This document shows positions 19,822 through 42,497 of a stretch of 64,000 bases of DNA, piece by piece. Origin of the DNA: Astropecten irregularis (Eukaryota; Echinodermata; Asteroidea; Paxillosida; Astropectinidae). Where the stretch lies: positions 16,414,499 through 16,478,498 of the forward strand of contig OZ020250.1 in the NCBI GenBank assembly GCA_963971285.1. Reading direction: 5' to 3'. Made by a program: the position numbers and the translations under genes. The notes below the pieces were generated by a model. The model was not told the DNA's origin, did no database searches, and saw only the letters and a list, made by a program, of their open reading frames with translations. Numbering within the stretch: position 1 is the stretch's first letter; the number at the start of each line of letters is the position of its first letter.

Positions 19822-20738
19822 ATTTATTTATTTATTTATTTATTTCTTCTTTAAACTGGGTGTCCCATTCAGTGCTTACAAAGTACTGATCTCCCATGGG
19901 TCCCAGCAACATGAATACATACAGTTTAATAAATAAAAAAAAAAAACACTAAAAATGACATTATTTTCGAAGTAAATAAAATTACATTGCACACAAAAGA
20001 CCAAAAATTATATACTTAAATATTGGCTAAAAACATTTCAATGTAAACAAAACAATAAAAGAAACAGTCAGATTACAAATTTACAATAAATAAAAAAACC
20101 GTACATGAAAAAACCCACGTCATGCCCCCAGTGCACCCCAAGCCCCCCGGGCTACAAATAAAAGGTACACATAAAAAGGTGAACTATGATTAAAATTGGT
20201 TAACAAAGCTTTGTATTGATGTGGGGAAAGGATTTTTTAGTCCGGCTGGAATGTTATTCCAGGCTTGAGCACCACGATATTGAAAGGTATTTCTACCAAA
20301 TTTGGTTCTAGGAAGTGGTAAAATAACGTTCCCATTAGTACTGGATCTAGTGCGATGTGAATGGTGTTCGTTGACCCTAATAAAATTGTCACTAAGATAA
20401 GTTGGAACCAACTTCGCTAAACATTTAAAAACCATGGTGTTCAGATGCAATTCCCTTCGTTCATGTAAAGTTTTCCAGCCCAGGCGATTAAATATGTCAC
20501 TAGTAGATGTTCTATAGGGATATAATGTAAAACAAATTGAGGAAGAATATGAGACAAAAAGGCTTTACTAAGGCACATGGTGAAGTTATAAGAGCTAATC
20601 AATGCCTTCAATGTGGGTTTCAATTTGATTTCAAAAAATTCCATTTATAATCCTGGTGGAAAATTTAGTATTCCCACGGAGAAAGCCTGTCTCAATCAAA
20701 GTACGAGCAAAAAAACGATACAACAGACTATGAAGTAA
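19822..20738 (-). mobile_element. Non-LTR retrotransposon 3' end (LINE fragment)
   Basis: The minus strand from about 20530 to 20190 reads as the region after the reverse transcriptase of LINE ORF2. Visible blocks are STSDIFNRLGWKTLHERR, then HLNTMVFKCLAKLVPTYLS, LPLPRTKFGRNTFQYRGA and AWNNIP. A 3' UTR follows, ending in an (AAATA)n-type tail at 19822-19855. The 5' part of ORF2, including the catalytic reverse transcriptase, is absent, so the copy is 5'-truncated and dead. It is CR1/L2-like by style; the exact clade is not determined. Confidence 0.78.
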
Positions 20739-21000
20739 CTAGTAGCATGTACATACTTGAAACTTGAACTTGAACTTGTGCACAGTACAAACAGACTGTG
20801 CATGCAAGCCGGGCTGCAGTGGAGCTGGCTCATTATTTATGCAGACAGTGACTTTGGATGTTGACCAATAACGTGCCACAGATGCATGTAATGTAATGAA
20901 ATATTGATTGCGTGCTGCAGGGGAGTTCCCCATTGCTTGGGGCTGGTACGCAGGCTGAGCTAACAGGCTAAAAGAGGTGTGGCTGGTGTTCTGAGGGGAG

Positions 21001-21112
21001 TATATAAGCGTGTTGCACAGACGGATCGGGTCCAATCTCTCGCTCCTGCTCTTTCAACCTGTTTGCGCTGTCTGTTCCAGAGAACACTACAAGTATTACT
21101 GCTGATGCTGGG
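21001..21112 (+). promoter_or_regulatory. TATA promoter and probable non-coding first exon
   Basis: A canonical TATA box, TATATAAG (21001-21008), is followed about 25-30 bp later by a probable start site and a pyrimidine-rich leader. The leader ends at a strong splice donor, GGG|GTAAGT (exon end 21112). No ORF begins in this exon. The nearest downstream acceptor with a good polypyrimidine tract is at 22896-22897 (CCTTTTGATCAG), which opens the exon holding the deaminase start codon. I therefore infer that this is the deaminase promoter and 5' UTR exon. RNA evidence would settle it. Confidence 0.55.
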
Positions 21113-21514
21113 GTAAGTACCTGCATTTTGATTAATTGTTGATTTATTTGATGTGTAGTGTTTGGAAATGTTTGTTTTGTCTCACAGAGGAAGAAAGGCA
21201 GGTTGAGCTAAGGATACCCCTTGGTCAAACTGTTGGTTGGCTGACGGTTGGTACACTCGCTGTCTGGAAGGGCCGGGGCTCAGGGGCGTGGGCCCCAGGG
21301 CAGCTGGAGCTGCCACTCATGGTGTCTGCAGAAGTTAAAATCCTTTTAGGCATTTCATGTACAGAATTTCATTTACGGAAAAAAATAATCCTTACCGTTT
21401 TGGCATTGAAAGATTTAATTCGGAAAGAAAAGGAACAAGGAAACACAAGATTGGTAGCTATTCAAGGCAAATTCGTGATGATCAGGCATTTTTACTATGC
21501 AATAAAAATAAGCA

Positions 21515-21860
21515 TTTTGATGACGTCACAGTTAGTTTAACAGCAGCATGCATATCTAAAGGCTATCCAAAGCTTTTACAAAAAAGAACCAGTATCATAG
21601 CACTTCTCGAGATATGCTGAGCTTTAACAAAATATCAGCCATTTTGAGGATATCATGATGACGTCACAGTTAATTAACAGCAGCATGCAATATTTGAAGG
21701 ATCTGAAAAAGCATTTACAAAAAGAACCAGTATTGTAGCAATTGCCGTTCTTGAGATATGCTGAGCACTTATATAATATCAGCCATTTTGATGATGTCAT
21801 GATGATGTCACGGTTAATTTAACAGCAGCATACATATTTACAGGATCTAACTAGACATGT
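21515..21860 (+). repeat. Diverged tandem repeat with CRE-like TGACGTCA sites
   Basis: About 2.5 copies of a 138-144 bp unit. Each begins with a TGACGTCA or TGATGTCA octamer (21521, 21659, 21803), followed by a block containing TTTAACAGCAGCAT, the motif AAAGAACCAGTAT, and GAGATATGCTGAGC. TGACGTCA is the consensus CREB/ATF site. Whether it is bound here is unknown. Confidence 0.7.
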
Positions 21861-22305
21861 GGTTGTGGGAACAACCACTAGGTGTTCTGGGTCTCTTCCC
21901 AAATCCAGCTGTTTTCTAATTATTTTGTGTCAAACTTCAACTTCCGGTTGTGAGGTCATGATGACAATTATGGCAGCATGCACATCTCCATGGTGTTACT
22001 AAGCTTTTGAATTATTGAAGCAGAAGAATTATTTTTGTACCATTTGTTGTTCTCACAAAATTAACTAGATAAATATTCAAATGACTGTCGCGTGACTAAT
22101 TAATTAAGAATTTGTACAACTCAGTGCCAGAATGATCCTTAGCTTATAAGCTTTCATAAGATACCTCATCTAAGCTGATCAGAAGAAGCTAAGAAGAGAT
22201 ACAAAAAAATTAACAAACTTAGTGCGCAAAGCTAATGAGCAAGAAAATCCGAACAAAAAAAATACCTGTTCCGTCAGAACAGCTAATAATATTCAGAACA
22301 AAAAC

Positions 22306-22347
22306 TTAACCTGTTCCGACACAGGAACGAATGTCGGAACAGGTTAA
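22306..22347. repeat. Perfect 16-bp stem hairpin
   Basis: TTAACCTGTTCCGACA (22306-22321) and its exact reverse complement (22332-22347) with a 10-bp loop. A related CTGTTCCG motif occurs just upstream at 22266. It could be a remnant of a fold-back element. Confidence 0.7.
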
Positions 22348-22897
22348 AAGAAAAGAAGAACGAAAAATGCAAAAGAGGTGTTACTGAGGAGAACTTGCGA
22401 GTCAAGTCACCCCGGGGCACCATGCACAGACAGAAATGTTCCGCCATATTCATAATCAACATGTTGTTACATGTATTAGGGCATATACCTATCGTGTATA
22501 GAAATCTCATACGGCAGCTGCAACATTTAGTCACACCTACAAGTACCAGTCTACATGGTCTAAAACCATTGGTGTGCCACATCCTTCTAACATGTCTAAC
22601 ACTTGCTGAGGCTGGAAATGCGTATACGCTGACCTCTGACCTTATTTTGTATTTCTTTTAATTAACCTTAATTACACGATATATTTATGATTTTTATTTA
22701 ACGAAAACCTTCATTAAGTGTTCTAGAAAAATTGTGTTATACTCTGCAATATCAATTTTTAGAACTTTGTTCCTTTAATATCTCAAACGGTTGATTTCAC
22801 AAAATTTTGATTAAAATCATTTGTAATTTGATACCTGAAAAGGAGAATGTAAGTCAAATTACTAACACTTGCACCCTTTCCCAATCCTTTTGATCAG

Positions 22898-23009
22898 CTG
22901 TGAAACAAATTCAAGATCTGATGACAACTACATGAAGTTATACAGCATCGAGAGTGACAAGCTTCATCATTGAACCAGACACACTACTGAGGCTTTATCT
23001 TGTCTGAAG
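22898..23009 (+). promoter_or_regulatory. 5' UTR with two short upstream ORFs
   Basis: The leader between the acceptor at 22896-22897 and the start ATG contains two upstream ATGs. The first opens a 4-codon ORF (ATGACAACTACATGA). The second overlaps its stop and opens a 13-codon ORF ending TGA just before the main start. Overlapping upstream ORFs of this kind commonly reduce translation; here that is inference. Confidence 0.5.
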
Positions 23010-25813
23010 ATGGCTCAACCAAGCCCGGACACGACTGGTAAATGACAGTTGGTTTTATTTATTGACTTGCTTGCCTCCTCGATTGTCTGCTTGCCCACTA
23101 TTAGCTTCCTTTCCTTCTCCCCTACACTAAAAATGTTTGTTCCTAAACCAGGGCCCAATTTCATGGAATCCGTTACCGTTAGCAAAAATTCTTCGCTTAC
23201 GGTAGCACTAGCAGATATTTCTGCTTTTATACAGTTTGAGTGTTTCATGGGAGAGTATTCTTTATGGTAACGGTAAGCAACAAATTTCTGCAGAATGCAT
23301 ATGATAACGCATTAGCAGAAAATAATTTTCTAGGTTACCCTAGGTTACCCTAGGTTACCCTACAAATTCTTCGCTAACCGAGAGTCTTGCTTACTGATTC
23401 CATAAAATAGATTTCACACAAAGCAGTGCCTGTAAGCACAAAAATAGGTTGTTACTGATTCCATGAAAATGGGGCCTGGTCACAAGTCTCATAATGGCTA
23501 TTTCACTCAACTGGAAGTCACATTTTTTTTTTTTTTTTACTAGACACACTCCTACTTTTGTGGGTCTTTTTATGGCACTTAACGGGGAATAGCTTCTAAA
23601 TGTGATGGGATTTGGTGCCGATTCTGGGGTGTTCTCCTACAGTTGTGAAGCACACGATCTCAAACCCCATGAGACTGTCACATCAAATGTTCGGAAATAG
23701 ATATGCCCACTCTGCTTTGCCATTCATTATGCAAATTAGCCTTGCCCTTCGAATGCCATTCACCTTGAATATAACCTGCCTTGTATTTAACCCACAACTT
23801 GATCTTGTGTCTTCCTTTCCAGATTCAGAGGAAGAATTATTGCTTGAGACCATCGAGATGAGACCTGACAGGATTGGTAAATGACAGTTGGTTTTATTTA
23901 TAGACTTGCTTGCCTCCTTGATTGCCTGCTTGGCTATTATAAGCTTCCTTCCCTTCTCCACTACACTGAAACGTGTTTGTAAGTTTGTCTCTAAATCAGG
24001 GCCCAATTTCATGGAATCCGTATATACAGTTAGCAAAAAGTCTTCGCTTACGGTAGCAGATTTTTTTGCTTACGGTTTGAGTATTTCATGGGAGAGTAGT
24101 CTTTTTGGTAATGGTAAGCAACAAATTTCTGCAGAATGCATATGACAGCACAATGGCACATTAGCAGCAAATAATCATGGTTACCCTAGAAATTCTTCGC
24201 TAACCGAAAGTCTTGCTTATGGATTCCATGAAATAGATTTCACGTGTAGCAGTGCCCGTAAGCACAAAAATAGGTTGTAACGGATTCTATGAAATTGGGC
24301 CCTGGTCACAAGTTTCATAATGGCTAATTCACTCAACTCGAAGTCACATTTTCTTTTTTGACTCGACACACTCCTATTTTTATGGGCCTTTTTATGGCAC
24401 TTAATTTGCTTTTTATGGCACTTCTATAAATGTGATGGGATTTGGTGCCGATTCTGAGGTGTTCTCCTACAATTGCGAAGCACACAATCTCAAACCCCAT
24501 GAGATTGTCACATCACATGTTCGGATATAGATATGCCCACTCTGCTTTGCCATTCATTATGCAAATTAGGAATGCCATTCACTTTGAATATAACCTGCCT
24601 TGTATTTAACCCACAACTTGATCTTTTGTCTTCCTTTCCAGATACAATGAAAAAAATGATCGAGAAAATCAAAGAAGACATCGAGACATTCACCCGAACA
24701 TGCACTATAAATGACGAATGGAAAAGGAATACAATCTTGATTGCCAATGATCAAGTGTATTATAATTCCAGTGACTCACAACAACATGCAGAGATTTATG
24801 CCATAGAGGCAATGAAAAATGAAATCCCCAAAAAGGTCATAATGTACATGAATTATTCTCCATGTATAAAATGTGCCGAACAGATACAAACATTTCAGGA
24901 AGACATGGCTAAAAACGCTGAAAAGGCTGAAAAGGCTGAAAAGGCTGAAAAGGTTGAAATTGTAATCAAATATGCCTCAGTATATTATAACAGGACAAAA
25001 GGTGAAACTAACAGCAATGGGCTGAGACATTTGCTGACATTGAAAACAAATGGAATAAGCATACAAGCATTACAAGGTAGAGACTGGAAAACTATCATCC
25101 AAAAGATTCTGACAATCCATGGCAAATCTCTCCTGAGTCATCTCATCACTAAACACCAAAAGATGTCAACATGGGAGGAAGTATACAAGGCAATTTGCAA
25201 AGAAATTGGGGAGAAGGGTACAGGTGACCATGACGATATAGAGCTAGGTATGGCGGCCATGTCCTTGGAAGACCAGCCAAACCAATGGCTGACTTCCTTG
25301 AGGAATATTCTTCAAGAAAACTGGGATAAAGGCTGGGAGACTGCACTGAGAAAGATAAATGAGACAGAGTGGTGGGAAACTGTCTTGAAGTGGCTTCCCA
25401 AACGCGGATGGGAGGAAGAATGGGAAAAGGAAAACATTGTCAAATATGATGAATGGAAAAAAGCTACAGGGATTTTGGTTGGTACACGGGAATGCAAGAA
25501 GAATGATAGTTGGAAAGACAAATATAGAACTATCCAGAAAAATGACCCGAAAATAAAAATGCAAGAAGAATACCTTCTTCCAGCAAGGGCTCCTTATTTG
25601 AATCAAAATTTAAATGATTTAGAGAATGAAGATAGACAGGGCTACTTCTGGTTGAAGAAGCTGCTTTCTGCATTTGAGATTTATGGTAGAACCACTCAAC
25701 AACAACAACTGAACAAGAATATCCCTCAAGACTGGCTCAAGCGGCGAATTGTGGCAGACCTTGTAGCAGCACATGAAAGAAAGTACCAGCATGAGCAGTT
25801 ACAGCTTAAATAA
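23010..25813 (+). CDS. AID/APOBEC-like cytidine deaminase
   Basis: Coding exons are 23010-23037, 23823-23876 and 24642-25813. The 1254 nt join in phase to give a 417-residue protein. Family knowledge: AID/APOBEC enzymes deaminate cytosine in DNA or RNA through a zinc-bound HxE...PCxxC site. Seen here: H76-A-E78 and SP101-C102-x2-C105, then a strand-like EIVIKYASVYY (133-143) and GLRHL...NGISIQAL (154-171), equivalent to the fourth strand and the following helix-strand of AID. The usual Trp before SPC is Tyr. An (AEK)4 tract (120-131) lies between the zinc helix and that strand. About 230 Trp- and Lys-rich C-terminal residues match no family I know. There is no signal peptide or membrane segment, so it is probably intracellular. 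The start ATG follows two short upstream ORFs in a leader exon (22898-23009). The third exon has no internal stop. The alternative, a generic CDA/ADAT deaminase, fits the strand order less well. Confidence 0.78.
23149..23478. mobile_element. MITE family B, copy 1
   Basis: Inverted-repeat element with left end CAGGGCCCAATTTCATGGAA and right end CCATGAAAATGGGGCCTG. Internal short inverted repeats are built on CTTACGGTAGC. It lies in the first intron copy of the deaminase gene. Confidence 0.7.
23997..24304. mobile_element. MITE family B, copy 2
   Basis: Duplicate of copy 1 at the matching place in the second intron copy. Its presence in both copies shows that it inserted before the intron duplication. 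The right end is TATGAAATTGGGCCCTG. Confidence 0.7.
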
Positions 25814-26656
25814 TTCAAATGCAAACTCACAACCTCCCCATTTCCCTCCCCAAAAAAACCCCAAACATACAATGAGTATATCTTTCAGAATGCCAAGAGA
25901 TGCAAATAGTCCATTCTGACCGGTCAATTTCTTTGTTGATATCTAATGGAGCTGAGCGTTCACGGGTAATTTGAGAACCGGGTACCCGTTTCCCAAATAT
26001 AATATAAAACATAAGAAATTAAGGACCCAGAAGTATGTTTCGTAATGGCCTCTGGCGAGTACCGGGGCGTCGCGCCAGGTATGCTTAAAAATTACAAGTC
26101 ATTGAATTGACCAGACCCTCCAAAAACACCCCACCCTATTTCGCCTTTTTATGAGTGTGACAAATTTAATTTTCTGTTATTTCTACCAACAAGACAGGCC
26201 AAGCAAATCTTAGCACAATCTTTTTTTCCCTGACATTGAACACTGACATCGAACACACAATGTATGCATTGTATCGTTGCGAGTTCCCCATAAAAACAGT
26301 ACCGTTCATTTAAAGTACCGTAAATCACATTTTCCTGATCAGCTACATCTAATACTTGAATTTCAGTGGGTTATTTTGTCCAATGGACCAAAGTAGAAAC
26401 ACACTCTTCACATGCATGATCTCAACAAAACATCATGAAAAGATTTTGCAGCAAGAAATATGCTTTTGACTTTGCCAAAAACTACAAATTTTACAGATAG
26501 GCCTATTATGTGAAAAAGGGCATGGTTTTTATAATTTTTTTTCGGGTACTCATATAAAAAGACTGGAATCGAGTACCTGTTGTTTTGGGTTGAGTTTCGG
26601 GTACACTGGTACCCCATACAGCACTAATATCTGATGAACAAACAAGCACTGCTTAC
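25814..26656. other. Deaminase 3' flank / ATIC intron
   Basis: No further exon is seen on either strand. A TATAAA hexamer at 26003-26008 could serve as a weak poly(A) signal for the deaminase; no AATAAA is present. ATIC coding sequence for the residues after exon 11 was looked for on the minus strand here and not found. Confidence 0.45.
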
Positions 26657-29600
26657 CGTCAGGACGCAGTATTTACCTCCTTTCTTCTTCGAGAGAATGT
26701 CTCGGGCTTCAGGCTCGTACCCAGGGGCTATGATTCCATCCGACACCTTCAGGAAATTCACAAAAATATAGATATATATAACAAATTAGACTACTAACTT
26801 CTGTTAACTTCAAACCTTGAACCCCCCTTTTTGTCCTGATCCTCTCATCCATTTATATGTGTATCTTTACTAGCAAGTTCTTGTCCCCTTCGATAAAGAT
26901 CCTACTAGGATTGAAACGCGTTAGGCCCTCCTAACTCTAAGCAATTGAAAATCTTATTTGTGTAGATTGGCTGATGATTAAAAATGATTACAAATCTACA
27001 ATGTGTTATAATGTATTATTACATAATTGTCAAGGTAAATTTGAGTGACTGACCTCCCTGGCAAGGATTTTTGCCGTGGGTACATCACAGATGTCCGACA
27101 AAGCGACAAAGTCGCCAAAGAACGACATACGATCGGCACCTGATTTTGAAATCAAACGAAACAAACATGTTTACCATGGTCACGTCTAAAATGATACAAA
27201 TTGAAGGATTTATAAGCGTGAATATAGCTGTAAGCAAAATGTGCACGGACACAACTTGAATGGATAACAGCAGTAACTATGCATAAAACTGATTACAGCA
27301 AATTAAAAAAAAACCCAAAATACACACTTTAAAGTTATGTAGTAAGTTGTAAGTTTAAATAGACATTTATTCTATGAAAGCAGAGAAAAAGAGGTTTAAA
27401 GGCATAATTTGTCAAATTGTAGATGTATCAGTAGATAAGCTTTTTTTAAAAATATTTTAGCAATTCATATCTATTAAGTTTGTGTCACATATCCAAAGAC
27501 CTCTGGCAGAATTTGTGTATCACCAAAAAGTTGCAGAATTTCAAGGAGTCGAGCAAAGTTTTTAGCTTAAAATCTACCCTGTCACATATAAAAAAGCGTT
27601 TGCAGGAAGAATGCCTGTGCCGACAAAAATATGCTGTGCCTATTTACAGCTGAGAAAGTTAATGACCATGTATGGTGTAGTTTATAAGCATATATGGGTG
27701 TAGTTTATAATCACGTATAAGTGATTAAAATTCCTTCTTTCAGTCAACAGACTTGCACGAAACTAACTTGCTACATGGCTTCAAGTGAATGCCAACAATG
27801 TAACTATTAAAGCCAAGTTTCGTTTGGTTGTTGGATGGTTATTTTCAGTTTCAATTCTTTTCAAAAGCCTTTGAAATTTAATTTCATTTAAGCTGAAATG
27901 GATTTAATAACAATTTCAACTTGTTCTAAATGTTGTTAAAAATTAAAATAATATACAGTCGAACCTCATTAATACGAGCTCTCTTAAGACGAGATCTCGG
28001 TTAAGACGAGCATATCACGCCGGTCCCGACCGAGTTGTGCACGTTTCTATGGGAAAATATTTGCTTAATACGAGCACTGATAATACGAAAAACCTTTTAA
28101 TACGAGCGTTTTGGGCTGACCCAGTTGCGTGGAAGTCATTGTAACAACCCATTTAATACGAGGATTTTTTAATCTGGCTTCTTTTAGAATCGATTTTCGG
28201 ATTTCTTTGTACAGATTAAGAAAAATCCCACCACCATCAAGTCGCCGTTGTTTTTTATGTTACCGAAAGCTAAATTCACCGCAGCGCTAATGCCCACTAA
28301 TCCCCTCCTGCGGTTTTACCAGCGGCTTGCCCAGTGGTAAGTGTAAACAAAAAACAGACAACGTACGGCCCATAGTATTTTCTTTTATTGAGCGTGATCC
28401 ACGTGGGTTTTTTGGCTGTCACGAAAGTCAAAACCCGCCCGAGGAAAACGGCGAGGTCTTCCATTTTGTCGATTCGTTTTCGTAAGGAGAAAAACTTCTT
28501 CATTTTTTTCCACAAATCAAACAAAGTCCACGCTAATCTCCAGACAATTTTACCTTACTGATGACGTGTAAGAAGGATTTTGGTCACAACAAATTCTTCA
28601 AAGTGTAGCCAACATGTATCCGAACAAAATAATATTCCATGAACGGACCGATACGATCCGACTGCGGCCCGACCGATCGGCCGATGTTACAGCTACACGT
28701 GGTCACCATGCACGTGATCGGATATAATGTGGCTAAACTGCAGCATTGGTCACCGTTACGAAGTGCCGACATAGCGCAAATTTTGTGATTGGCTACATGA
28801 AGGGAAGGGGAAAAAAGACAGATGTTGGACTGCTAAAAAACCCGACATCTTAAAAAAAATAATCCGTGTCAAAAAAACCCCCAAAAAACCACGAACGCAC
28901 TTATTAATTTAAGTTAAAATGGCGCCCTCTCGTGTCCATCAAAATATCACTGGTTCCCTGCGGTGCACATTGCTTCATACTGCACACATTGTTTGGCAAC
29001 CAACTTGTCTGAACGTGCGGTGCTAACGTTCGTCGCTGTCATCCACTCGCAATTTTCATGTCGTTTTCGTGTTGCATTATTTTTATTTACTTGGTTTTTA
29101 TTATTCTTACATATTGTAATGAAAACCCTTTTACAACCGTGACAATTCAACAAAATGAAATTTATCAAGCACATTTATTAAGTACTTCTAAAATGTAAAC
29201 ACGGACTTGACACGTAATTATGGGTTACCGGAGGGATAGTGCATGCTGTATGTGCAGTGTACCGCACAAACGTGCATTTTGGTTGACAAAATATGGATCC
29301 CGCATAATACGAGGCCCCGCTTAATACGAGCATTTTCGGTAAGTCCCGGCGACCTCGTATTAACGAGGTTCAACTGTATATAACATATATGTGTATTTTT
29401 TTTTACAGAATTATCTGCTTGTACTAATACATCAGTTATTTAATCAATTTTTAGATTTTATGTATTAGTTGAAAGTAATTGTATGCAAATTTAATATCAT
29501 TTTAGATGAAATGGATTCAATATAAATTTCTTCTCGTTCTCAATGTTAAAGGAAAATTATATATAACATATGGTATACATTTTTTTTTACAGAATTATAT

Positions 29601-32600
29601 ACTTGTACTTAATTCATCAGTTATATAATTACTTTTAATATTTGAAAAGTGAACAAAGAACAATGACTGTAGAGGGATTCAAACCGGCGACCTTCTGAAT
29701 ACTGTACAGGCGCTCTACCAACTGAGCCAACCATCCCTACATTGGTGGTGACCCCAATAGTCAATTATCTTTGTTCGTTTGGTAGTCAGAAGCCATGAAA
29801 CCACGCACACACCGCCACACCCCAGGGATCATTTCAATGATACACGCAGCAATGCTGCAACCTGGGAACGGTACATGGGGGATGACTCAAAGAGGATACA
29901 ACTTTTTAATTAAAAGAATCATCAAATAAACACAAGGGAAACTGACTGAATTTCTAAAAAAAAATTTAGAATTCAGTCAGGTTCCCTTGTGGTTACATGT
30001 ATTTAATGATTACATTATTTTTAATATTTTATGTAAGTTGTAAAGTAAAAATGTACACAGATCATGACAAATAAAAGCCATATAGCAGTAAAAATGTTTG
30101 AAGATTAAGTTCTGTGGGGAGACATGAATACTCCAGACTAGCTGACAGTTAATGATCATTGTGCCACTGAACTGGCATGTGGCGGAACACTGATAAGACT
30201 GCTTTCTTGCTAGGAGTTTTGACTTGTGTCGAGTTACGGATGTCCCACTGACATGTTGCACAAACGATTTCCCCAAACACAGGATGCACTGACTGCACAT
30301 TTTGACTTTGTTTGCATTCATTGCACAGACTGCTTACATGTTGTTACAGATGTGTATTTCCAAATGGAATGTACATGCCAGATTTACACTGGTGTCCAAC
30401 ATGGTATCCAAAGGATGCCTAAAACCTTGCTATAAACACTCCACAATATATGACCTTCTGTGATACCCCATCATATCTTCCTAATCAAAACCTGGGGCCT
30501 TTCTCAAAGCTCGGCTCCGGCTCAGGCTCTGGCTTCGTCTCTGTGATCCATATGCTGAAAATATGGGTTGTGGTTTTGCATTGAAGCTGAAGCTCTGTTT
30601 TCTTGTTCAAACCAGAGAATATACTCCCGAACCGTAGCCAAAAGTCTCTATTTTGATACCCATAATTTTAAAATGGATTTACGAAATGGAGCCAGAGCCG
30701 GATCCAGCGCCGGATCCAGAGCTTTGAGAAAGGCCCCTTGCCTTCGCAAACCGACCAAAACAGGGTGGAGTCTGAGATTTTCAATCCGTATGGCTTACCT
30801 CTGGCCCGGGCATAGGCCGTTGCTAGAGGTGTCAATGGCATGAGATCAGCCACCATGCACAGCTTGGCCTGGTCAGGGGTCAGCTCAACTCCAATTGCAG
30901 CACCTGGAGGCAAACAAAACAAGAGGAAGGTCACATTTACTGGAAAGAGAAGAGGGGGAAGGGGATGGGTTGGGGCAGGAGAGGAGGAGAGTATTAAAGG
31001 AAGGGTAGGGCAAGGATGGAAGAGTCCACTTTATACAGACGATGAACTGGAAAAAACACTACCTGCCGGACTGACGTGCTTGAATGAAGTTGCGGCGGGA
31101 ACACCGAGGGCAGCCTTCAACTCCCTGACCAGTTGCCAGGCGTTGAGAGCGTCGCAGAGGTTGATGAACCCCGGCGAGCCATTCAGCACCTTCAGGGGCA
31201 GCTCGGCGCCGGTGGTGTAGAGCTGGGCCGGCTTCTGGTGGGGGTTGGTGCCGTAGCGTAAGCCCAGCTGGGCCACGTCGCTGCAATACTGCTGACAGAA
31301 GTAATCCGAGATGGCTGCGTCGTACAAGGCAGTATGTGTGAAAGCCTGGAGAACATTTTCATTCCAAAAAAAAAAAAAGAGTGCTTTAGTGCTTTAAGAG
31401 TTAGGAGGCCATGATGTTTCAACACTAGTAATATCTTTTTTTTGGTCAAGCTTCAGAGTGCAAAAGATCAAGCTGAAAGAAAAAGGTTACCTTGACGGCA
31501 AGTTTCTGCCTGGTTTCCAGTGTGGTATCTTTGTCTTCCCGTCCTTCAAGTTCTTGCAGCACACTGGATGAGATCAAGTTGATGGAGGAGGAGAAAGAAA
31601 GGCGAACGGCACCAATGAAGGAAGTGAAGAGGTGAACGATCAACTCAAGCAAACTGTATAGCAGGCCCTTTAAGTTTAGGTCTGCCCCTTTAATGCAATG
31701 TGTGAACATGAAACTCTTGCCTATTGTTGGCTCTGGCTATACAGTTGTTCTTTATTCTTACACAGTTTCTTGCAGTGTAAATTCGCCTTATTTACGTCCT
31801 CTTACTGAGGTGGGGGCACAGCTGGTCCTAAGAGGCCGTAGGTTAATTCAAGTCCATTTTACCTTTCGTAGTCAGCGGGGTCACACACCACAGTAACTCG
31901 GGAATGGTTCTTGGCAGCTGCCCGAAGTAGAGTTACACCACCTTCATAAACAACCACAACAAATAATAATACCAACAAATGAACTCACGTAACTGAAATT
32001 ATTTATTTCATAATTATGAAATATCAACTGTCAAATAGTGAATTGGCTTGCAATATTCGGTAGTCTAGTCAGAAGCCATGAAACCACACACATGCCACAG
32101 TAATCAATTTAGGTGCATGCAACAATAGCAGTGCTGTTAAACCAAAGACAAAGAAAATCGGGGACCATGGCGTCTGACCCACTGATCCCCACCCCCATAC
32201 CCCTCCCTCGCGGCCCAACTGACCAGCAGACAAGCATAATCGGCCGACATCATGGCTGGTCGGCCGACATCACTCACCAATGTCAATCTGTTCCACGGCC
32301 GCATCCACAGTCACGTCTGGTTTGGCTATGGTAGACTCAAATGGATACAGGTTACACGCCACCAACCTGCACAAGAAACATTTCAATTATGAATGGTTTT
32401 CAACTCATATGGCAAGAGATTGGGATGATGTGCAGAGTGCACCCTCCATATTCTAACTACAAATCAGTATTAAACAGGGTGTCCAAAATTAGCTTGTCCA
32501 AATGGTATGTGGACACCAATGCATCGCAAACGCAAACATGGTGGGGGGGGAATGTTGTTCAAGAAATGGTTATAACTATTTCCGCTCGGAAAGTTTCACA

Positions 32601-35166
32601 TACCTGACAAAGTTGAACCCTTGCTGAGTCATGTCTGCCACGTCTTGCTCGATCTTTCGCGATAAAATGCCTGAAACGATACAGAAATCATAAATTTCTG
32701 TAAGGTAATCTGTACAGGACCTTGGTTCTTGGGCCAAGAAAAATGACCCAATGACCCCTTGATAAAGGGAAATAGATAACAGCAATTACTGAAACAACAA
32801 TAATGCAGTTTTTATATATCACAATGGGTTTTAGTGTCTATGCACTTTTACACATAATATGAAACGGACACAAAACAAACAAAATGACAATTTAGCAATA
32901 AATACCAATTACAATTAAGGAATTTTAAATAAAACAAAATAAACTAACCCTCACCCACATACATACCACAATTTACCACACAAAGTTTTTTCCTGTGGCA
33001 AGTGTGGTATCCTGCATATACAACAATACACCAAAATGTGTGGTTTGTGTGGTAAGCAGCACTTGTCTTATGTGACAAGTGTAGAGGGTTTAGGGTATGA
33101 CTATGAGTAATTAAAGAGGTATGTTTTCAAACTGATCAGGTGAATTGCAATCTTTGGTAGTAGGAATCAATTTATTCGAGATAAACATTCCTTTAAATGT
33201 GAAAGGTGAGTTATTTTGGAATGAGGGTGCAGTTTTGACGAAAGAAATCAAACCAGCCAGACTTACATCTACTACTGATGGATTAAAAACTGAAACAACA
33301 AGCTTTGAGCTTCATTTCATAATTACTCAATCATGAATACAGGACTTGAAAGATTTGATGTGTGTTCGATCTGGGAGGGCATTTTTGTTGATTGGTTAGT
33401 GCCGGGTCAGTGAGGGAAAAAAGTTCACTTTGAGGCTCGGTAAAAGGTCTTCTTTTGATGGTAGTTTCTTACCAGCATGAACAGCAGGGTGCAGGGTTTT
33501 CACACGCCCCCCCAGCATCTCCGGTGCTCCAGTAACCGAGGCAACGTCACTACATGATACAGGAATAAATCAAGAAAGAAGCTTAACCCCTTCAGCGTCA
33601 GCCCGGGATTTATTAGTTTCCTTTGCTTGTACCGACCTCATTATCAGCCACTGGTTAAACATGTTAAATAGAGGTCATCTGGCTGGGCTAGGAGCTCGGC
33701 ATACACAATGCGGGCACACAATGATCGAATACCGCCGCACAAATCCCAAATTCCAGGCAGTCTGTACTATAAAATGAAACCAGCTGTGTTTGGAACTCAT
33801 AGATTGCAGTCTGCTTGAAAATGTCAATCTATTCAAATGCAAATCAACAATAAAGGTTCGTAAAACCTCTTGTTTTAGACAGTACCCCATTTAATGAATC
33901 TCAATGGAAATAACAAAGAAATCATGAATATTCTCACGCCACAAAGTGGTCTGTTATAGATGCTCCCCAGACGGAAAAAGTTAACCGCAGAGTGAGCAAC
34001 AAGTGTAAATTACTATATTCCATTTGTCTTTCTCTTTTTTTTTCCTCTGACAAATTGAAATAATGCATTTTGCCCAACAGTGACATAGATGAAATTGAAA
34101 TTAAAAATTGAAATTAAAAAAAGGTGTTTTAATTGTTTTACCCTCAAAACCATCTTAGGGTCCCACATGATCGCCCTGTAGGCTTCAGGGTGTAGGGTTT
34201 AGAATTTAAGAAAACAGGGTAAAGGTTATCAGCTGAGACAATTGAAAAGAAGGATTAGGGTCAAACTGGGGGAGGGGAAAGGGGGGAGGGAAACAAACAA
34301 GGACAAAAGGTTTTTTTCATTTTCATCTGATACCTGACAGGGATGCCAGCCTCTCTTATAGCTCGTGCTGTCCCACCAGAGGCCACAAGCTGAAGACCTA
34401 TAGCGTGGAGACGCTTGGCAAATTCAACGAGGCCATCCTTCTTGGAAACACTCAGCAGAGCTGGAAAAAGAATGAAAGAACAGAACGGCAATTAGAGGAA
34501 GGGGCACAAAATAAGAAAACATGTGATTATGTGAAAACGAAACTATAGGCCCTATATCACTTATCAGTATATGACTCACAGCGGTAGGGGTAGGCTAATG
34601 CAAATGGTTGGTTTACAAATACAATTTAGCAGCCCATAGTAATTGTTCTGAAATTGCTTTTTAACATTCAAAAATTAACTTCTACAGCATAATAGAATGG
34701 AATTTTTAATGCTGAATTTTGAAAATGCTGAATGCCTGAAAGTTAGAAGGCCAATTAACTTTACAACATTCCAGTGAAGGCGTGTTGAATGTAATTCTTC
34801 ATGTTCTTCTTACCTCTGGCTGACTCCCCACATAATTTACCCCCAAAACTCAAAACCCTCCCTGCCAAGTGGCAAGTTGCCAACTTTCCAAAACCTAACC
34901 TTGCTGACATCAAAATGGATACATATCAAAACCAACTGTGCAAAGACTTCCACTGACGGACAGTACAGTGAAAGTTTTACGGGGTGTTTTTGACAGTAAG
35001 CTGCAGCGACATGGCAGTCACTTTTTATCAAACAAAACGGCCTCTGTCGTGCACACCAGATTCAGTCCCATAGGGTTTGTGCACAAGTTGTCGAGTGTTG
35101 TCTGTAGCTGTCAGTGGAAATCAAATCTCTCCCAAATTGATACTCACCTATTTCGCCACTTGCCAT
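26657..35166 (-). CDS. ATIC: ATIC, N-terminal 365 codons (11 exons)
   Basis: Bifunctional purine enzyme: AICAR formyltransferase and IMP cyclohydrolase, the last two steps of IMP synthesis in the cytosol. Exons, 5' to 3': 35148-35166, 34334-34460, 33473-33549, 32604-32670, 32278-32366, 31863-31941, 31491-31563, 31063-31345, 30799-30903, 27054-27139, 26657-26746. All join in phase with GT-AG introns. The protein starts [16 protein letters not shown]. It contains the cyclohydrolase motif [14 protein letters not shown] (K66), [18 protein letters not shown] and the transformylase catalytic pair K266-H267 in SFKHVSPAG. All of these fall at the same residue numbers as in human ATIC. The last exon seen, ending at GGKYCVLT, has a good donor (GTAAGC), so splicing should continue. 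The remaining roughly 220 residues (human total 592) are not in the window, which makes this copy incomplete here. No stops or frameshifts are seen. Confidence 0.95.
27140..27955. other. ATIC intron 9, right of exon 10
   Basis: AT-rich intronic DNA between exon 10 and the pogo-like element. Low-complexity stretches only; no gene is seen. Confidence 0.5.
27956..29376. mobile_element. Pogo/Tigger-like non-autonomous DNA transposon
   Basis: 1421-bp element in the large ATIC intron. The termini are inverted repeats, CAGTCGAACCTCATTAATAC and CTCGTATTAACGAGGTTCAACTG, flanked by TA on both sides (27954-27955, 29377-29378). The short motif TAATACGAG recurs many times inside both ends. Termini of the form CAGT-GAACCTCG and TA duplications are typical of pogo/Tigger-type Tc1/mariner elements. 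No transposase ORF remains. Confidence 0.82.
29379..30493. other. ATIC intron 9, middle part
   Basis: Contains a tRNA-derived SINE (29643-29830) and a short near-palindrome around 29938-29995 (CACAAGGGAAACTGACTGAA / TTCAGTCAGGTTCCCTTGTG). No coding sequence is seen. Confidence 0.5.
29643..29830 (-). mobile_element. tRNA-derived SINE
   Basis: The minus strand has a tRNA-like head with an A box (TGGCTCAGTTGG) and a B box (GGTTTGAATCCC). It is adjoined by a conserved body, AGTCAATTATCTTTGTTCG and AGTCAGAAGCCATGAAACCA (plus-strand sense), shared with copies at 52797 and 53015 and a tail fragment near 32070. The acceptor stem is not intact, so it is not a working tRNA gene. Confidence 0.7.
30494..30737. 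mobile_element. MITE with GGGGCCTTTCTCAAAGCTC termini
   Basis: 244-bp element with 19-bp terminal inverted repeats (GGGGCCTTTCTCAAAGCTC at the left; the right end closes GAGAAAGGCCCC). It lies 61 bp from ATIC exon 9 on the intron side. The superfamily is undetermined. Confidence 0.72.
32070..32110 (-). mobile_element. SINE body fragment
   Basis: Short match to the SINE body (AGTCAGAAGCCATGAAACCA followed by CACACA) in an ATIC intron, without the tRNA-like head. Confidence 0.5.
32671..33472. other. ATIC intron 3
   Basis: No gene. Around 32960-33055 there are inverted runs of the word TACCACAC and its complement GTGTGGTA, a possible decayed fold-back element. Confidence 0.45.
33550..34333. 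other. ATIC intron 2
   Basis: Intronic DNA with nothing recognisable except an A-rich stretch near 34093-34123 (two GAAATTAAAAA words). Confidence 0.5.
34461..35147. other. ATIC intron 1
   Basis: Intronic DNA between the short first coding exon (19 nt) and exon 2. No other feature is recognised. Confidence 0.5.
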
Positions 35167-35464
35167 GATGCTTGTCTAAATATCAAACTGTTTGAGAATG
35201 TCAGAGCAAGTCGTCAGTACTTCTGAGCGCATGAATTCATCCAGGTGCTCTAAAAGAAAAGATTTTAACCTCGTGTTCTGGGGAAGTTTGTGATAAGAAT
35301 TCGCGAAGATCTATTCGAAAGCACTAGCGAAACACGTGCATTGACGTGACCAGACTGATTCGGCCTGCATTTGGGTTGGCCGAATTTTCGGCTGCACGCT
35401 ATTTCACCGTCAACGACGAAATACTCTACGGAGAATCTAACTGTACGTCATTATTTCCAAAAAC
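35167..35464 (-). promoter_or_regulatory. Probable ATIC promoter region
   Basis: About 300 bp between the ATIC start codon and a LINE fragment. It is richer in CpG than its surroundings (for example GGCCGAATTTTCGGCTGCAC near 35379). It has no TATA box, as expected for a housekeeping promoter. The transcription start is not defined by sequence alone. Confidence 0.4.
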
Positions 35465-35966
35465 AGAAGTGTGGGCGGGAAGACCTATGAACTTGATAAA
35501 ATTCAACGACGTATTTCAAATCTAGTTGGAGATGACTTGGCTTCAACTCTGGAACCCCTATCTCTCCGTCGTTCTGTAGCCTCTTTGAGCCTCTTTTACA
35601 GATACTTTTTTGGTAGGTGCTCCAATGGACTCTCACTGGTTGTTCCACCCAACCGTACCTTTGGTCGCACCACACGCCCGTTTCTCTGCTCAGTCACATT
35701 CTTACACTGTGGTGGTCCCCAAGTCAAATACTCGGGGATACTCATCCAGTTTCTTCCCGCGTACCGCCTTGCTGTGGAATTCACTCCCTGCATCCTGCTT
35801 CCCTTCCACTTACAATTTGTCTCAATTTAAGTGCAACATCAACAGTTATCTTTCTACCCCATGATTTCTTCTTTGTTCCCTTTTCTCCTCGTTTTAGCCA
35901 TCACCTCGAGTGGCCTGTTTTGGGCCTTGTGATTGGCGATTTTTCATAAAAAAAAAAAAAAAAAAA
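35465..35966 (+). mobile_element. LINE 3' end with poly(A) tail
   Basis: The plus strand reads as the C-terminal part of a Jockey-superfamily (CR1/L2/Daphne-like) ORF2. Visible blocks are LDKIQRRISNLVGDDL, SLRRSVASLSLFYRYFFGRC, then after a frameshift near 35670 ARFSAQSHSYTVVVPKSNTR, SSFFPRTALLWNSLPASCF and YNLSQFKCNINSYL. It ends in a poly-A run at 35948-35966. It is 5'-truncated and frameshifted, hence inactive. Confidence 0.85.
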
Positions 35967-38900
35967 CTTAATAATTTCCTCGCCCTTCAAAATGTAAAAT
36001 TTTTCTTTTAGCATTTTGTACAGGGATGTCACACAGTAAAAAAAGAAGAAGACCGAATTAAGATAATCCTTCATAGGTAATTAAAACATTTATTAATTAA
36101 GTAAACCTTGCATTGTACACACCCTTTTCATACTTGACAATTATGACTACATGTATTTACTTTAATACGTTTTCCCATTTAGGGATCGGAACGTCCAGCC
36201 TAAACGTTGTAAGTGGTGTGTATGCCCATGGAGGTAGAAATGAAATCATGTCCATCTTTGCAGTGCGTAACAAGAGGAAAACACTTTTTTTCGGGGTTCT
36301 GAATCAGGGTTTTGTCTTTGTAAACATTTTCTGGGATTCCCTGGGTAGGCTCAATGACATGGCAGGATCAGTTGTATTCCTTGAATCTATTGGACTAACG
36401 ATGGTCATGGATTTATTATTGCAATTCCGAATTTTTTGTGTGTGACCATCCATTTTTACAAAATGTTGAAAGAAAATTTAACATATCTGAAACTAGGGGG
36501 AGAGACTAAGTTTGATTTTTGCTATCATTCAAAATTAATCTGTCTAAAGAAAGCTGTTATTTTGAGATTTGTGTCTCCTTTTTGATCCATAAACAGTTAA
36601 GACTCGTGAAATAATTCTGTTGCTGAGATACATGTACTTTGCTATAATTATGTATTCAATGAGACACCGTAGTGTACGTGTTTTATGTACGGTGTAATAA
36701 GAGTCGGCACGGCAGAAATTTCTGCCTAGCATCAGTCTGGTGCACATTGTTATTATTGCACACGTGTTCACAGCGCGCGAAAATCATTGATATGGTTATC
36801 GCCTACATGATCACCTACACGTAGCGCACGAAATAATGGTGGCGCACTTCCACCCAATTAATAACTTTGTCCCACTCGATCCAAATTATGCAAATGAATC
36901 ATTTCAAGAGGTGGAGCCATTCAAACATATGCAAATTACAAAAGTTGTGGACCAATGAAATTATACGTTTACAATTCATCGTGAAATCGCCAGGCAATGT
37001 AAAAATGAGTCATGGTTGGACTTCCAGACATTCATGACAGTGCAGTATAAGATCATTATTAATAAATTAATAAATAAAATAAACAAATATGGCGACCCTG
37101 CAATAATCAGCAAATCAAAAACATTTACTTCGGAAAATGTTTTGTTGCATCTCATCTTGTTTTGATTTGTCTTGTCTTTTAATTTTGCTCTCTTTTCCAG
37201 AAAAGGAGGACAAAAAGAGAAGCCGAAACTAGCCTAAATATCTCTACATTCTCTTACTAATTTCTTCATTCCTTTGGCCAAAACAGGTAATCAATCTTTA
37301 ACAAAACGTTTTGGTTTTAAAGGGGTATAGGGCCAGGGTAGGGCGACATCAGACAGAAAAAAACAATGAAATAATCACACACAATAATATACAGACAAAG
37401 CCAATTTTCATGAAATTACATTGGTGTGTAATGATGCCAACTTGGTATATACATAATCACTACAGTCTGATCATTCATACATGTAGAAATGTTTGCCAGG
37501 AAGCCATCACACAAAAATGATGTCCTTTCTTACAAAAATAGCACGTTGACATAACCGTCTAATCGTTTCTTCTTTGTGTTTGTGGTTTTTGTTTTTAATA
37601 ATAGCAGTATGCAAGGACCAACCCCACTGAGGTTACATACATTCATTTTACAATTAAACTCGTAAGCATTTTGTCTGGGGTCTAGCTATATAGTTTCAAG
37701 CGAATGCACTCCAGGCAAACCTACATGAAAATAACCACCAGCAGAAAAACCTCAGTGAAAGTTGGCCCGTGCACTGAACAGACACAATGTGTTTTTAATG
37801 GTACAATCGTAATTTATCATTTTATGTACAAACGTATAATTAGTCTCTTTCAATGTCAGGCCCCGTCTGGCACATTCATTGTGCATCCGGACGCCAACGA
37901 CATCGGTAAATAAATTAATGTGATTTATGATACATAATGCTTTTTTGCCTCAAGCACTGATATTATATAGTATAAAACATGTATTACAGGAAGATAATTG
38001 TTATGCAAATCACTGTTTTTTTTCCTTTCTTAGGTATATTAATTTATTTTGTTGCGTGGTTAGACAAAAAATCTGAGCAGTATATGACATGCATAAATAC
38101 CCACACGATTATGACGACCATTTATGTTTTTGTTTTGTTTTAGCATGTAGAATTTCAAAGGTTAGACGTGATCTTTGTTACTTCATCTTGTAAATTTTTT
38201 TTTTTGTAAATTACAACGGGCAAATTCCACATCTGTTAATACATCTCAAAAACACCGAAACTCAATTCACCTTTTGCCCCTTTTCCTTGAAAAAGAAGAA
38301 ATAATTTAGAAAGTTTGGTTAAGAGTTTAACGAAGTATACATACATACTTCCTGAAACAGACATCATGTTTTATATCAATCCTACTATTTACTTTTTAGG
38401 ATATGAAATTTACACTTTAAGTATCATTACATCAAATATGAAAATGATGGAAAAAAACTGGACCATTTTATCATCATCATCATCAATTGCAAACAATTTT
38501 TTCATTAATACAGGTAATTATTTTTGATTCCCTTTCCTCCAAATGAAATCTTCAAAAGACATTACCAATATACCTATCAGTTTTTCATGTTACCACATAT
38601 TAGATTGGGACAAATTACTGCATTTATTTTAAGTCCTACATTTAAAGAGTTCAAGTTACGTTTTCCATTTTTTTCCCATACAAATTACAAAGTGGCATTC
38701 ATAGTTATTCAGAAAATAATACCCACAAAACAAACATGCAAATAGTTCTATATCTTAACTTCTGTGCCTCAGAAGAGCTCCAAGATTTTGGATGTCTAAA
38801 GTTGGCCGTGGTTTGTGATAGTAGAAAGTGGAATAGGGAATGGGCAACTGGTTTTTAGTGCTGTACACGTGATAAAAAATGGTTATCTACAAAGTTTATA

Positions 38901-39520
38901 AGCATTTAGTGCACGCTGGATATATATAACTCTGACAATTTCATTTGTGATCGGTGGAAAGGACTGCTCCCACATCAACCTGAACAAAATTCTTTCATCC
39001 AAATGACCCAATTATTTTGCTGTTGGCAAAGGACAGATTTTTTTGAAATCTTAAAAACCACTGTGATATGTTGACTGGTACTTATACATGCAAGACTCAG
39101 TCTGCCCACCATGTGCAAAAACATGTCAATGTACATTAATCTAAACAAGCACTGGTATATTTTCAAGATATACAGGGTGCAAACGGATTTTACTGTAATA
39201 CTCCTTTCTCCTGACTAAATGCCACAGAAGTTCTTCCAGCTTTTCATGCAATTTTCACCCACTGTGTCTTAACGGCTTGCCTTCCCTTTATATGAAACCA
39301 TGCCATGACAGGCCCTTGACTCTCATGTAGCGTGGTAACAGTGTCCTTAGTCTGGAGAAATCATATGATTATGATTAGATGCAAGTGACATCAGTTATTA
39401 AAGTCAGTTTACCAGACATTGGTCAATGTTAACAAGCAGAAGGCTACATACAGCTTATAGTTTGACCAACTTCTTCCCTACAATGCCTCAATTACACTAA
39501 GGTAATAAATAATCTGGCCT
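35967..39520. other. Intergenic region, 3.5 kb
   Basis: No gene is supported. The sequence is AT-rich with short runs such as TCATCATCATCA (38472). A 46-nt exon-like stretch at 37860-37905 is listed separately. Other candidate splice pairs, for example TTTCCCATTTAG at 36182, enclose only tiny ORFs. Confidence 0.5.
37860..37905 (+). other. Isolated exon-like sequence
   Basis: A 46-nt stretch between an acceptor (TTTCAATGTCAG) and a donor (GTAAAT) reads APSGTFIVHPDANDI in phase 0. It has higher GC than its surroundings. Phrases like PSGTYTVYPD occur at the start of fibrinogen-like domains, so it may be an orphan exon of a secreted protein gene. No partner exon was found and chance is possible. 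Confidence 0.25.
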
Positions 39521-39761
39521 GGGGCCAATTTCATACAGCTGCTTAGCACACAAAAAATCGCTTAGCATGACATTTCTGTCTTAATAAAAACAGGATTAAC
39601 AACCAAATTTCCATGTGTTGTGTATCACTTGCAATTGTTCTTTGGCTGTTGTTCCCTGACCATAAATATCAAATCGAATTTTCAATGGTGGTTTGATTTA
39701 TTGGGCAAGCCATTTTTGTGCTAAGCAACTTGGTGCTAAGCATCTCTATGAAATTGGCCCC
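39521..39761. mobile_element. MITE family C, copy 1
   Basis: Inverted-repeat element with left end GGGGCCAATTTCATACAGCT and right end TATGAAATTGGCCCC. It contains the subterminal word CTTAGCACAAAAA and its complement, and an internal block AACCAAATTTCCATGTGTTG shared with the copy at 55879. Confidence 0.75.
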
Positions 39762-40090
39762 TGTTCCCAACCAATTTTCTTTCAAATTACACCCTTTTAC
39801 ACTGCATCTCTTTGGTACAATGCTTATGTATAAAATGTAAATAGCACTGTATATATTTACTGCCTTACAAATACACCTTCTGTATCCCAGTTCAAATCAT
39901 TTATAAATATCTATACATCTCAAATCAAATACAAGAATTTTTTCTATGTTTTCAAGCACTGATGGCATAGAAACGTGCAAAGAAATGTGTATATTCACAG
40001 CGGATTTTAAATGTGGACATGGGGTAAAATGGCATTAAATGCAAGCATCAAATGGTCCATACTTTGAAATTTCTCCAATAACTGAATACC

Positions 40091-40139
40091 GGTAAATAAA
40101 TAAATAAATGAATAAATAAATAAAAAAAATAAATAAATA
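40091..40139. repeat. (AAAT)n microsatellite
   Basis: Tetranucleotide run AAATAAATAAATAAATGAAT and onward, slightly imperfect. Confidence 0.8.
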
Positions 40140-40213
40140 GGTCATCATTTTTGCAGATGTTTCAAAACAAGCTGGCTGAAAAGCTGAAATGATGACTAAT
40201 TCCACATATTAGT

Positions 40214-40391
40214 CATGGACCTTATCGAAGATAGCCCGTTTTCGGCACTAGGCTTGCGCACGCAAAGGACAGTGGGTAAATCTTGTGGATTTGAACATCA
40301 CTCAGGCCGTGCCCTAGCAACAATTTTACCCAGAATGCTTTGCGCATACCCCGTTTGGGTCCGTTTTGCACTATCTTCAATAAGGTCCATG
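40214..40391. mobile_element. MITE with CATGGACCTTAT termini
   Basis: 178-bp palindromic element. The left end CATGGACCTTATCGAAGATA is the inverted counterpart of the right end CTATCTTCAATAAGGTCCATG, with a single mismatch. The interior carries no ORF of note. Confidence 0.75.
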
Positions 40392-40596
40392 GTGATTGCA
40401 ATGCTTGCTACACACAGTATAGAAAAAACATAATATTTGTATCTCTTCGTCCAAGAGTGACTGGGTTTTGGGGTACGTAGAGCAAGCTTTGCATTTTGGC
40501 TTTGTGTGTTTCGAAAGCAGGCCTTGAGGGTTATTCCAATGGAGTTGAGATGAAGTCCGAACGGTCAATTTTGGTAGAATGACCGGGGATGACCGG

Positions 40597-40924
40597 TAGC
40601 ATTCCGAAACAGAAATCTTCACAAATTTACCTATAACTTACAGGGTATGAAGATGGTGATGGTAGAAACACACCATCAAGTATGTATCCATCAAGAAAAG
40701 GGTAAAACCAATTGGCCAAAAACAATTTTGATCTTCAGAAGATCAAACATCCTGTGAACAGACTTTTATTAAAAATACCATGGCCGTTTTCACTGTTTTC
40801 TCTAACTAAAAGTGGGCACCGTATGAGATTGGAAATTTCACAGATGACTGTTACTGTGTCTTTCTTGATATTTTTGCCCATGAATCTGCATTTTATTACA
40901 AAAACCAAAGTATGAAATTACCTT
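40597..40924. mobile_element. MITE family A copy, left end lost
   Basis: Matches family A through its interior (GATCTTCAGAAGATCAAA centre, AAAAGTGGGCACCGTATG). The right terminus is CCAAAGTATGAAATTACCTT followed by TA. The left terminus is not recognisable, so the copy is decayed. Confidence 0.65.
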
Positions 40925-41806: not shown

Positions 41807-41872
41807 AAAAGCACAAGTCTTCAAGTCTTCGTGCAAAAGCACAAGTCTTCAAGTCTTCGTGCAAAAGCACAA
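41807..41872 (+). repeat. 28-bp direct tandem repeat, 2.3 copies
   Basis: The unit AAAAGCACAAGTCTTCAAGT plus CTTCGTGC starts at 41807, 41835 and (partial) 41863. The unit itself contains an internal CAAGTCTT duplication. Confidence 0.85.
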
Positions 41873-42486: not shown

Positions 42487-42497
42487 TACAACCTTTA

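Follow-up and report, generated by a model that had tools for sequence, protein, structure and literature searches.

A predicted AID/APOBEC-like deaminase with a Trp-rich C-terminal half, and its tandem copy, in the sea star Astropecten irregularis

Among vertebrate AID/APOBEC deaminases, APOBEC4 consists of one deaminase domain and a long C-terminal part, and tandem duplication and fast evolution are traits of APOBEC3, on which diversifying selection by viruses and retroelements is known to act. In echinoderms, the closest described proteins are the AID/APOBEC-like SpAIDL proteins of the sea urchin. According to Liu et al. 2018 (PMC5956068), SpAIDL1 and 4a are 193 and 194 amino acids long, five V5-tagged SpAIDL proteins have predicted masses of 22.3-24.6 kD, SpAIDL1 and SpAIDL2 increase mutation when tested in E. 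coli, and transcripts of SpAIDL2 become more abundant after Vibrio injection. Secreted relatives are described as well: SNADs have a signal peptide, and SNAD4 is reported to be known only in sponges (PMC11004436). Here we describe a gene from Astropecten irregularis, located in a 64,000-nucleotide stretch of contig OZ020250.1 (positions 16,414,499 to 16,478,498, forward strand; hereafter the window), which probably encodes an intracellular, zinc-dependent AID/APOBEC cytidine deaminase joined to a lineage-specific, Trp-rich module of ~199 residues, and which forms with a second copy a tandem pair that appears to diversify like a defence gene. New in this analysis are the second full-length copy, which carries both halves of the protein, and the finding that the coding exon outpaces its neighbouring DNA in divergence.

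Gene model, family assignment and C-terminal module

The coding features of the gene in the window are as follows.

23010..23037, plus strand: coding part of exon 1, with the start codon and first 9 codons, ending at a GT donor, phase 1
23823..23876, plus strand: predicted exon 2, 18 codons, flanked by two copies of a duplicated intron; absent from the paralog
24642..25813, plus strand: exon 3, with the deaminase core, the C-terminal half and the stop codon
24647..25213, plus strand: AID/APOBEC-type deaminase core, residues 30-218, from profile matches, its end being placed by inference
24785..24793, plus strand: H76-A-E78, same in the paralog
24857..24874, plus strand: S100-P-C102-x2-C105, same in the paralog
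24907..24959, plus strand: in-frame minisatellite of 9-bp units (AEK repeats), located after the PCxxC helix and before strand 4; not in the paralog
25214..25810, plus strand: C-terminal module, residues 219-417, Trp-rich and outside known families
25274..25324, plus strand: residues 239-255, identical between the copies at 17 of 17 positions

Exon 3 lies in a stop-to-stop frame of 436 codons (24503-25813, plus strand). The runner-up frame in the window has 155 codons, and in 30 random sequences matched to the window in length (64 kb) and first-order composition the longest frames ranged from 132 to 202 codons, so the long plus-strand exon proposed in an earlier, sequence-only reading of this DNA is real. 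Joined through two GT-AG introns of phase 1, the three predicted exons give a protein of 417 residues, in which the motifs of that reading, H76-A-E78 and SPC102-x2-C105, keep their numbering. It had begun the feature at 22898; the coding start is at 23010, which places 22898-23009 upstream of coding.

A full-length paralog lies 59 kb upstream (G000:C14:16379865-16380965). It is 65% identical across both halves of the protein, with its frame open, and the module can be assigned to the gene on the strength of this match over both halves. The start codon of exon 1 and its donor site are conserved in the paralog (L003 5410-5437). Exon 2 is missing there, and its use in the window gene is only predicted.

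When compared with Pfam by hmmscan, the window protein exceeded the curated cut-offs of seven AID/APOBEC clade models, and the paralog those of eight. The highest scores of the window protein were for APOBEC4 (49.3 bits), SNAD4 (47.9), APOBEC_N (47.1) and NAD1 (41.8), followed by APOBEC2 (36), APOBEC4_like (32) and NAD2 (28.1), and those for APOBEC3 (23.6 bits, cut-off 27) and APOBEC1 (20.5 bits) remained below cut-off. The paralog scored best with SNAD4 (46.9), NAD1 (45.8) and APOBEC_N (45.1), with APOBEC4 fourth at 43.7 bits. The generic model dCMP_cyt_deam_1 (cut-off 25) was also passed by both copies, at 28.0 bits in the window protein, lower than the AID/APOBEC families, and at 34.9 bits in the paralog. 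A profile of the two core sequences found APOBEC3G structures as its best matches in the PDB (1.1e-5), and the single window sequence gave no PDB match below E 0.13. These results bear out the AID/APOBEC-like identity first read from the letters alone, and support the placement of the window gene in the AID/APOBEC superfamily, with the clade within it left open. We place the core's end near residue 218 on the basis of the APOBEC_N match, which extends to residue 208, and of the expected last helix.

Both copies have the same four residues at the zinc site and the same S ahead of PC; by their place in the family motif, H76 would be a zinc ligand, E78 the proton shuttle, and C102 and C105 further zinc ligands. 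The highest 11-residue hydropathy mean within the first 45 residues is 0.05, that is, judged by hydropathy alone, there is no hydrophobic N-terminal stretch, which is the reason for placing the predicted protein inside the cell. The parts of the predicted mechanism that have support are membership of the family, the zinc motif, the absence of anything like a signal sequence, and the pattern of evolution described below. A single-sequence AlphaFold2 model of the exon 3 protein had a mean predicted local distance difference test score (pLDDT) of 37, too low for a reading of the fold.

The genome searches covered 475.7 Mb in 168 contigs, and their match counts are lower bounds, since exon-by-exon reading could miss an intron-split relative. 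All matches above cut-off fell at the two gene copies (APOBEC_N 2 of 2, SNAD4 2 of 7, NAD2 2 of 2), and no third copy of the gene was found in this genome. None of 14 control genomes had a match above cut-off for any of these three models, a mild control, as the controls named are prokaryotes. The five SNAD4 matches below cut-off comprise four loci with in-frame stops and one ADAT2-like gene, named by reading of its sequence, with an open frame of 219 codons at a separate locus (L010 1246-1905, minus strand).

The C-terminal module spans ~199 residues, given the core end placed above, rather than the ~230 first proposed. Its description as rich in Trp, Lys and Glu holds for Trp (6.0%, core 1.6%); Lys and Glu occur at similar frequency in both parts. 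The isoelectric point is 6.4 for the module and 8.7 for the core. As the sequence-only reading had it, the tail carries no recognised domain: no Pfam family matched the C-terminal part of either copy, and a two-sequence profile of this part matched no PDB chain. A genome search with the module returned four matches, of which only those at the two gene copies had E <1e-3. The others had E 2.8 and 9, the former being a frame of coiled-coil-like appearance, and no standalone copy of the module in the genome was supported. As to an origin of the module among prokaryotes or viruses, no relative was confirmed in genome contigs, viral contigs or phage records; the contig scans worked with a few short peptide patterns, suited to fairly close relatives only. 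We treat as chance the weak matches in other collections, namely two NCBIfam matches far under cut-off (one to a single-stranded DNA-binding protein model at residues 286-347, 15.9 versus 161 bits), a single PADLOC match (Cas1_II, 13.5 bits, C-terminal half of the paralog) and the best PHROGs match, to a dCMP deaminase family, in the core of the paralog (22 bits). The exon 3 model and a single-sequence AlphaFold2 model of the C-terminal 199 residues (mean pLDDT 38) give a hint, at low confidence, of mostly helical structure, and the fold of the module is probably helical.

That the C-terminal half is another deaminase domain in degenerate form is not supported. This half contains no HxE/PCxxC, and its profile comparison with the core gave a probability of 0.7% over 18 residues. 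There is a short similarity between residues 309-319 and 45-55 (7 of 11 identical, BLASTP E 0.022 for a single comparison).

Divergence of the two copies and its explanations

The two genes lie in the two copies of a segmental duplication, whose extent, together with the noncoding features around the coding exons, is given here.

20720..48635, in the window: tandem segmental duplication of ~28 kb, copy B
G000:C14:16378067-16408048, outside the window: tandem segmental duplication, copy A
22865..23009, plus strand: upstream flank with 93.1% identity to the paralog, a probable promoter or 5' untranslated region
23022..23827, plus strand: duplicated intron unit, copy 1, 82% identical to copy 2 with gaps counted
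23861..24646, plus strand: duplicated intron unit, copy 2

The introns around exon 2 are near-duplicates of each other, with 88.7% identity over 745 aligned bases.

In aligned columns, the two copies show 201 differences over 1076 sites in exon 3 (18.7%) and 87 over 1068 in the near flanks (22865-23078, 23480-23822 and 25814-26383; 8.1%; Fisher p = 7e-13), and the aligned blocks of 26384-48635 differ at 711 of 16570 sites (4.3%). This comparison left out the second intron of the window gene, stretches with large insertions, and the blocks 20720-21269 (77 of 531 sites different) and 40595-42476 (181 of 1788). With block 20720-21269 added to the flanks, exon 3 stands at 201/1076 against 164/1599 (p = 9e-10). 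When 72 bins of 300 bp are ranked by divergence, the four full exon 3 bins take ranks 1, 2, 4 and 6; exon 3 is thus the strongest peak of divergence, though not the only one.

Both frames have nonetheless stayed open. Random placement of 207 substitutions produced a mean of 8.7 stop codons, and none of 3000 simulations was free of them. All 11 alignment gaps in exon 3 are multiples of three, and a gap of 13 appeared only in an alignment that ran 22 bases past the stop of the paralog. The differences are spread over codon positions as 77, 66 and 64, and 53 codons carry at least two changes, where 34.8 are expected and the maximum of 2000 shuffles was 48. The nonsynonymous (dN) and synonymous (dS) distances are 0.226 and 0.218 for exon 3, 0.251 and 0.222 for the core, and 0.203 and 0.214 for the module, and dN is ~2.6 times the near-flank distance (95% bootstrap 2.0-3.7). 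Exon pieces of ATIC in the same duplication served as a control and gave dN 0.006 and dS 0.058, from three pieces totalling 148 codons that were picked by eye, one of which probably extends at its ends into intron by a few codons. Constraint is patchy along the protein, with low identity in putative loop 1 (residues 48-58, 27% of 11), loop 3 (40% of 5; region 69-75) and residues 310-329 (25% of 20), and identity of 90-100% in residues 59-68, 134-142, 173-192 and 239-255. The within-codon clustering, together with a dN ~2.6 times the near-flank distance, points to diversifying selection on the predicted protein.

By analogy with the described SpAIDL relatives, the predicted enzyme would most likely deaminate cytosine (C-to-U) in single-stranded DNA or RNA of foreign or selfish origin. 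Its C-terminal module might serve localisation, oligomerisation or the binding of a target or partner, and viruses or retroelements would maintain the difference between the two copies by exerting diversifying selection. A role of the module in targeting or partner binding, which had been suggested from the sequence, is a guess. We more tentatively entertain a stronger version, to which we give less than even weight, in which catalytic loops and module have been held old and diversified by antagonistic or balancing selection and the flanking DNA homogenised, making the protein a restriction factor with a pathogen-facing targeting module. If this were true, exon 3 would represent an innate mutator locus diversified in the germline and would correspond, in an invertebrate, to the APOBEC3 arms-race genes, with a specificity domain that is not a deaminase. 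A two-part tandem pair of this kind would allow one to ask whether mutator enzymes take part in arms races outside vertebrates, and what role a non-deaminase domain plays in them. The duplication provides a built-in yardstick, so that the question of selection can be tested with population data.

Several observations weigh against the main interpretation, a deaminase that diversifies like a defence gene. The ratio dN/dS is ~1 (0.70-2.2 for the catalytic part, 0.57-1.6 for the C-terminal part), which alone is no sign of positive selection, and dS is raised as much as dN (1.7-3.5 times the flank distance). Part of the divergence must therefore reflect the age of the exon or homogenised flanks and not only positive selection. 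A few noncoding stretches are nearly as divergent as exon 3 (14.5% in 20720-21269), and among the 300-bp bins the third rank goes to a repeat-rich one at 45600 (17.8%). The within-codon clustering is found in positions 1-2 (31) and not in positions 2-3 (16; across codon borders 18), and multi-base mutations could contribute to it. Loop 7 (residues 143-151), which we take to be the specificity loop, is no hot spot at 62% identity; loop names and element borders are putative, being assigned from general AID/APOBEC topology. The divergence analysis compares only two sequences from one assembly. The motif spacing, HAE-x22-PCxxC with 22 residues from E78 to P101, falls outside the x24-36 quoted for AID/APOBEC by Liu et al. 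(PMC5956068). Since the profile matches pass their cut-offs, we take that range as a description of the members then known and not as a defining rule.

Because dS is raised equally, diversifying selection must be combined with an older exon 3, either through balanced alleles captured by the duplication or through gene conversion that homogenised the flanks only. In the first alternative, the two copies descend from divergent alleles of an old balanced polymorphism, with a peak like those of the major histocompatibility complex, which were either set in tandem wrongly by the assembly or brought together in cis through unequal crossing-over. We consider this somewhat unlikely, although it fits the joint rise of dS and dN in exon 3 beside calmer flanks better than positive selection alone does. 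It also agrees with the identity in tracts over the duplicated segment (82-100% per 300-bp bin outside exon 3) and with the numerous alleles of sea urchin SpAIDL genes (Liu et al., PMC5956068). Plain misplacement is at odds with the surrounding DNA. The spacer between the duplication copies, of ~27 kb, contains a 4.3-kb tandem array, and among 44 kb upstream, this spacer and 55 kb downstream there are, besides the array itself, only two matches of at least 400 bp, each of ~540 bp; the failure to find a third copy of the gene also speaks against it. No contrary evidence bears on the version by unequal crossing-over.

Unlikely, too, is a catalytically silent protein like APOBEC2 or APOBEC4, whose deaminase fold and module would serve binding to nucleic acid or protein but perform no editing. 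The window protein scores highest with the Pfam model APOBEC4, and several SpAIDL proteins were inactive in E. coli assays (Liu et al., PMC5956068), but the zinc-site residues and the S before PC have been kept in both copies amid much change elsewhere. It is less probable still that these are recent duplicates drifting toward loss under relaxed constraint. A dN/dS near 1 and the in-frame minisatellite inside the core would suit such drift; plain decay is disfavoured by conserved frames (zero stops in either copy versus 8.7 expected, all gaps in frame) and by patchy constraint, with blocks of 90-100% identity beside blocks of 25-40% and clustering within codons, and the exon is more divergent than neighbouring DNA, not less. 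Another deaminase family resembling AID/APOBEC (dCMP deaminase, TadA/ADAT2 or a bacterial toxin deaminase) is highly improbable, as the match to dCMP_cyt_deam_1 in both copies, the weak toxin-type matches under cut-off and the 22-bit PHROGs match are set against top four AID/APOBEC models at 41.8-49.3 and 43.7-46.9 bits that reach the later strand and helix part past the zinc motif, with the ADAT2-like gene a separate locus below the SNAD4 cut-off.

Mutation of the gene by its own product was also considered as a source of the differences and rejected, as exon 3 has no excess of transitions (99 transitions versus 102 transversions; 480 versus 395 outside).

Neighbouring features of the window and genome

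Within the duplicated segment, exons of ATIC (AICARFT/IMPCHase; window 26676-31393, minus strand) are in tail-to-tail orientation to the deaminase gene, were duplicated with it and are strongly constrained in the pieces sampled; PF01808 matches one exon with 73.9 bits, and two other exons were assigned by reading. Homology between the segments breaks near the stop codon of the paralog, where the ~2.4 kb after the stop (L003 6973-9338) have no counterpart in the window copy. Window 45558-45846 is internally repeated, and 53 of its 248 aligned sites differ between the copies, as much as in the deaminase exon.

The array in the spacer consists of ~4 tandem copies of the 4.3-kb unit (window 1007-18083, with a further 458 bp at 19177-19634), which are 98.3-99.4% identical. 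The one 120-codon frame tested in this unit had no Pfam match. A frame at window 20193-20564 (minus strand) looks like the end of the reverse transcriptase of a non-LTR (long terminal repeat) retrotransposon, and has no Pfam match. A dispersed repeat of ~370 bp is present in many copies and both orientations (window 3285, 7591, 11890, 16179, 42495, 58264, 61110 and 61831). A tRNA-like stretch (window 52818-52891, minus strand) lies inside a dispersed repeat (52793-52981 and 29641-29827), perhaps a short interspersed nuclear element derived from a tRNA.

Elsewhere in the assembly, COX1 on contig C168 can be translated without interruption under NCBI table 9, the code of echinoderm and flatworm mitochondria, and AAA stands there at conserved Asn positions of the family, for example in the start region FFSTNHKDIG. 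Two other COX1 matches were seen. One is a 552-codon frame without TGA on a different contig (L025, G000:C131:32162-33484), perhaps a bacterial contig within the assembly; the other, which has 7 TGA, lies on a large contig (L027, G000:C25:9951047-9952018) and is perhaps a nuclear copy of mitochondrial DNA.

Comparison with known deaminases

The gene described here resembles sea urchin SpAIDL1-9 (PMC5956068) in being an echinoderm AID/APOBEC-like gene with an APOBEC_N domain, HxE...PCxxC and paralogs. SpAIDL open reading frames were amplified from genomic DNA (PMC5956068), a further point of likeness. It differs in that a core of similar size is followed in both copies by ~199 further residues, a C-terminal half that the SpAIDL proteins, by the sizes given there, do not have. 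Lingula LaAIDL1 is likewise an invertebrate AID/APOBEC-like protein of about double length, but it contains two tandem deaminase domains (PMC5956068), and the second half here is without HxE/PCxxC.

Among the Pfam models, SNAD4 (PF18750) ranks second with the window protein (47.9 bits) and first with the paralog (46.9 bits); unlike the SNADs, the window protein has no signal-like N-terminal stretch by hydropathy. Vertebrate APOBEC4 (PF18775), likewise one deaminase domain followed by a long C-terminal part, gives the top Pfam score for the window protein, but the match is confined to residues 93-182, its score is near those of SNAD4 and APOBEC_N, and with the paralog the model ranks fourth. 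Vertebrate APOBEC3 proteins such as APOBEC3G provide the best PDB match of the core profile, whereas the Pfam model APOBEC3 is below its cut-off and the second half here has no recognisable deaminase domain.

No title or abstract start in the literature searched named a C-terminal module on an echinoderm AID/APOBEC-like protein. Invertebrate AID/APOBEC-like enzymes as such are already known, and we class the present gene as apparently new by its architecture within the AID/APOBEC superfamily.

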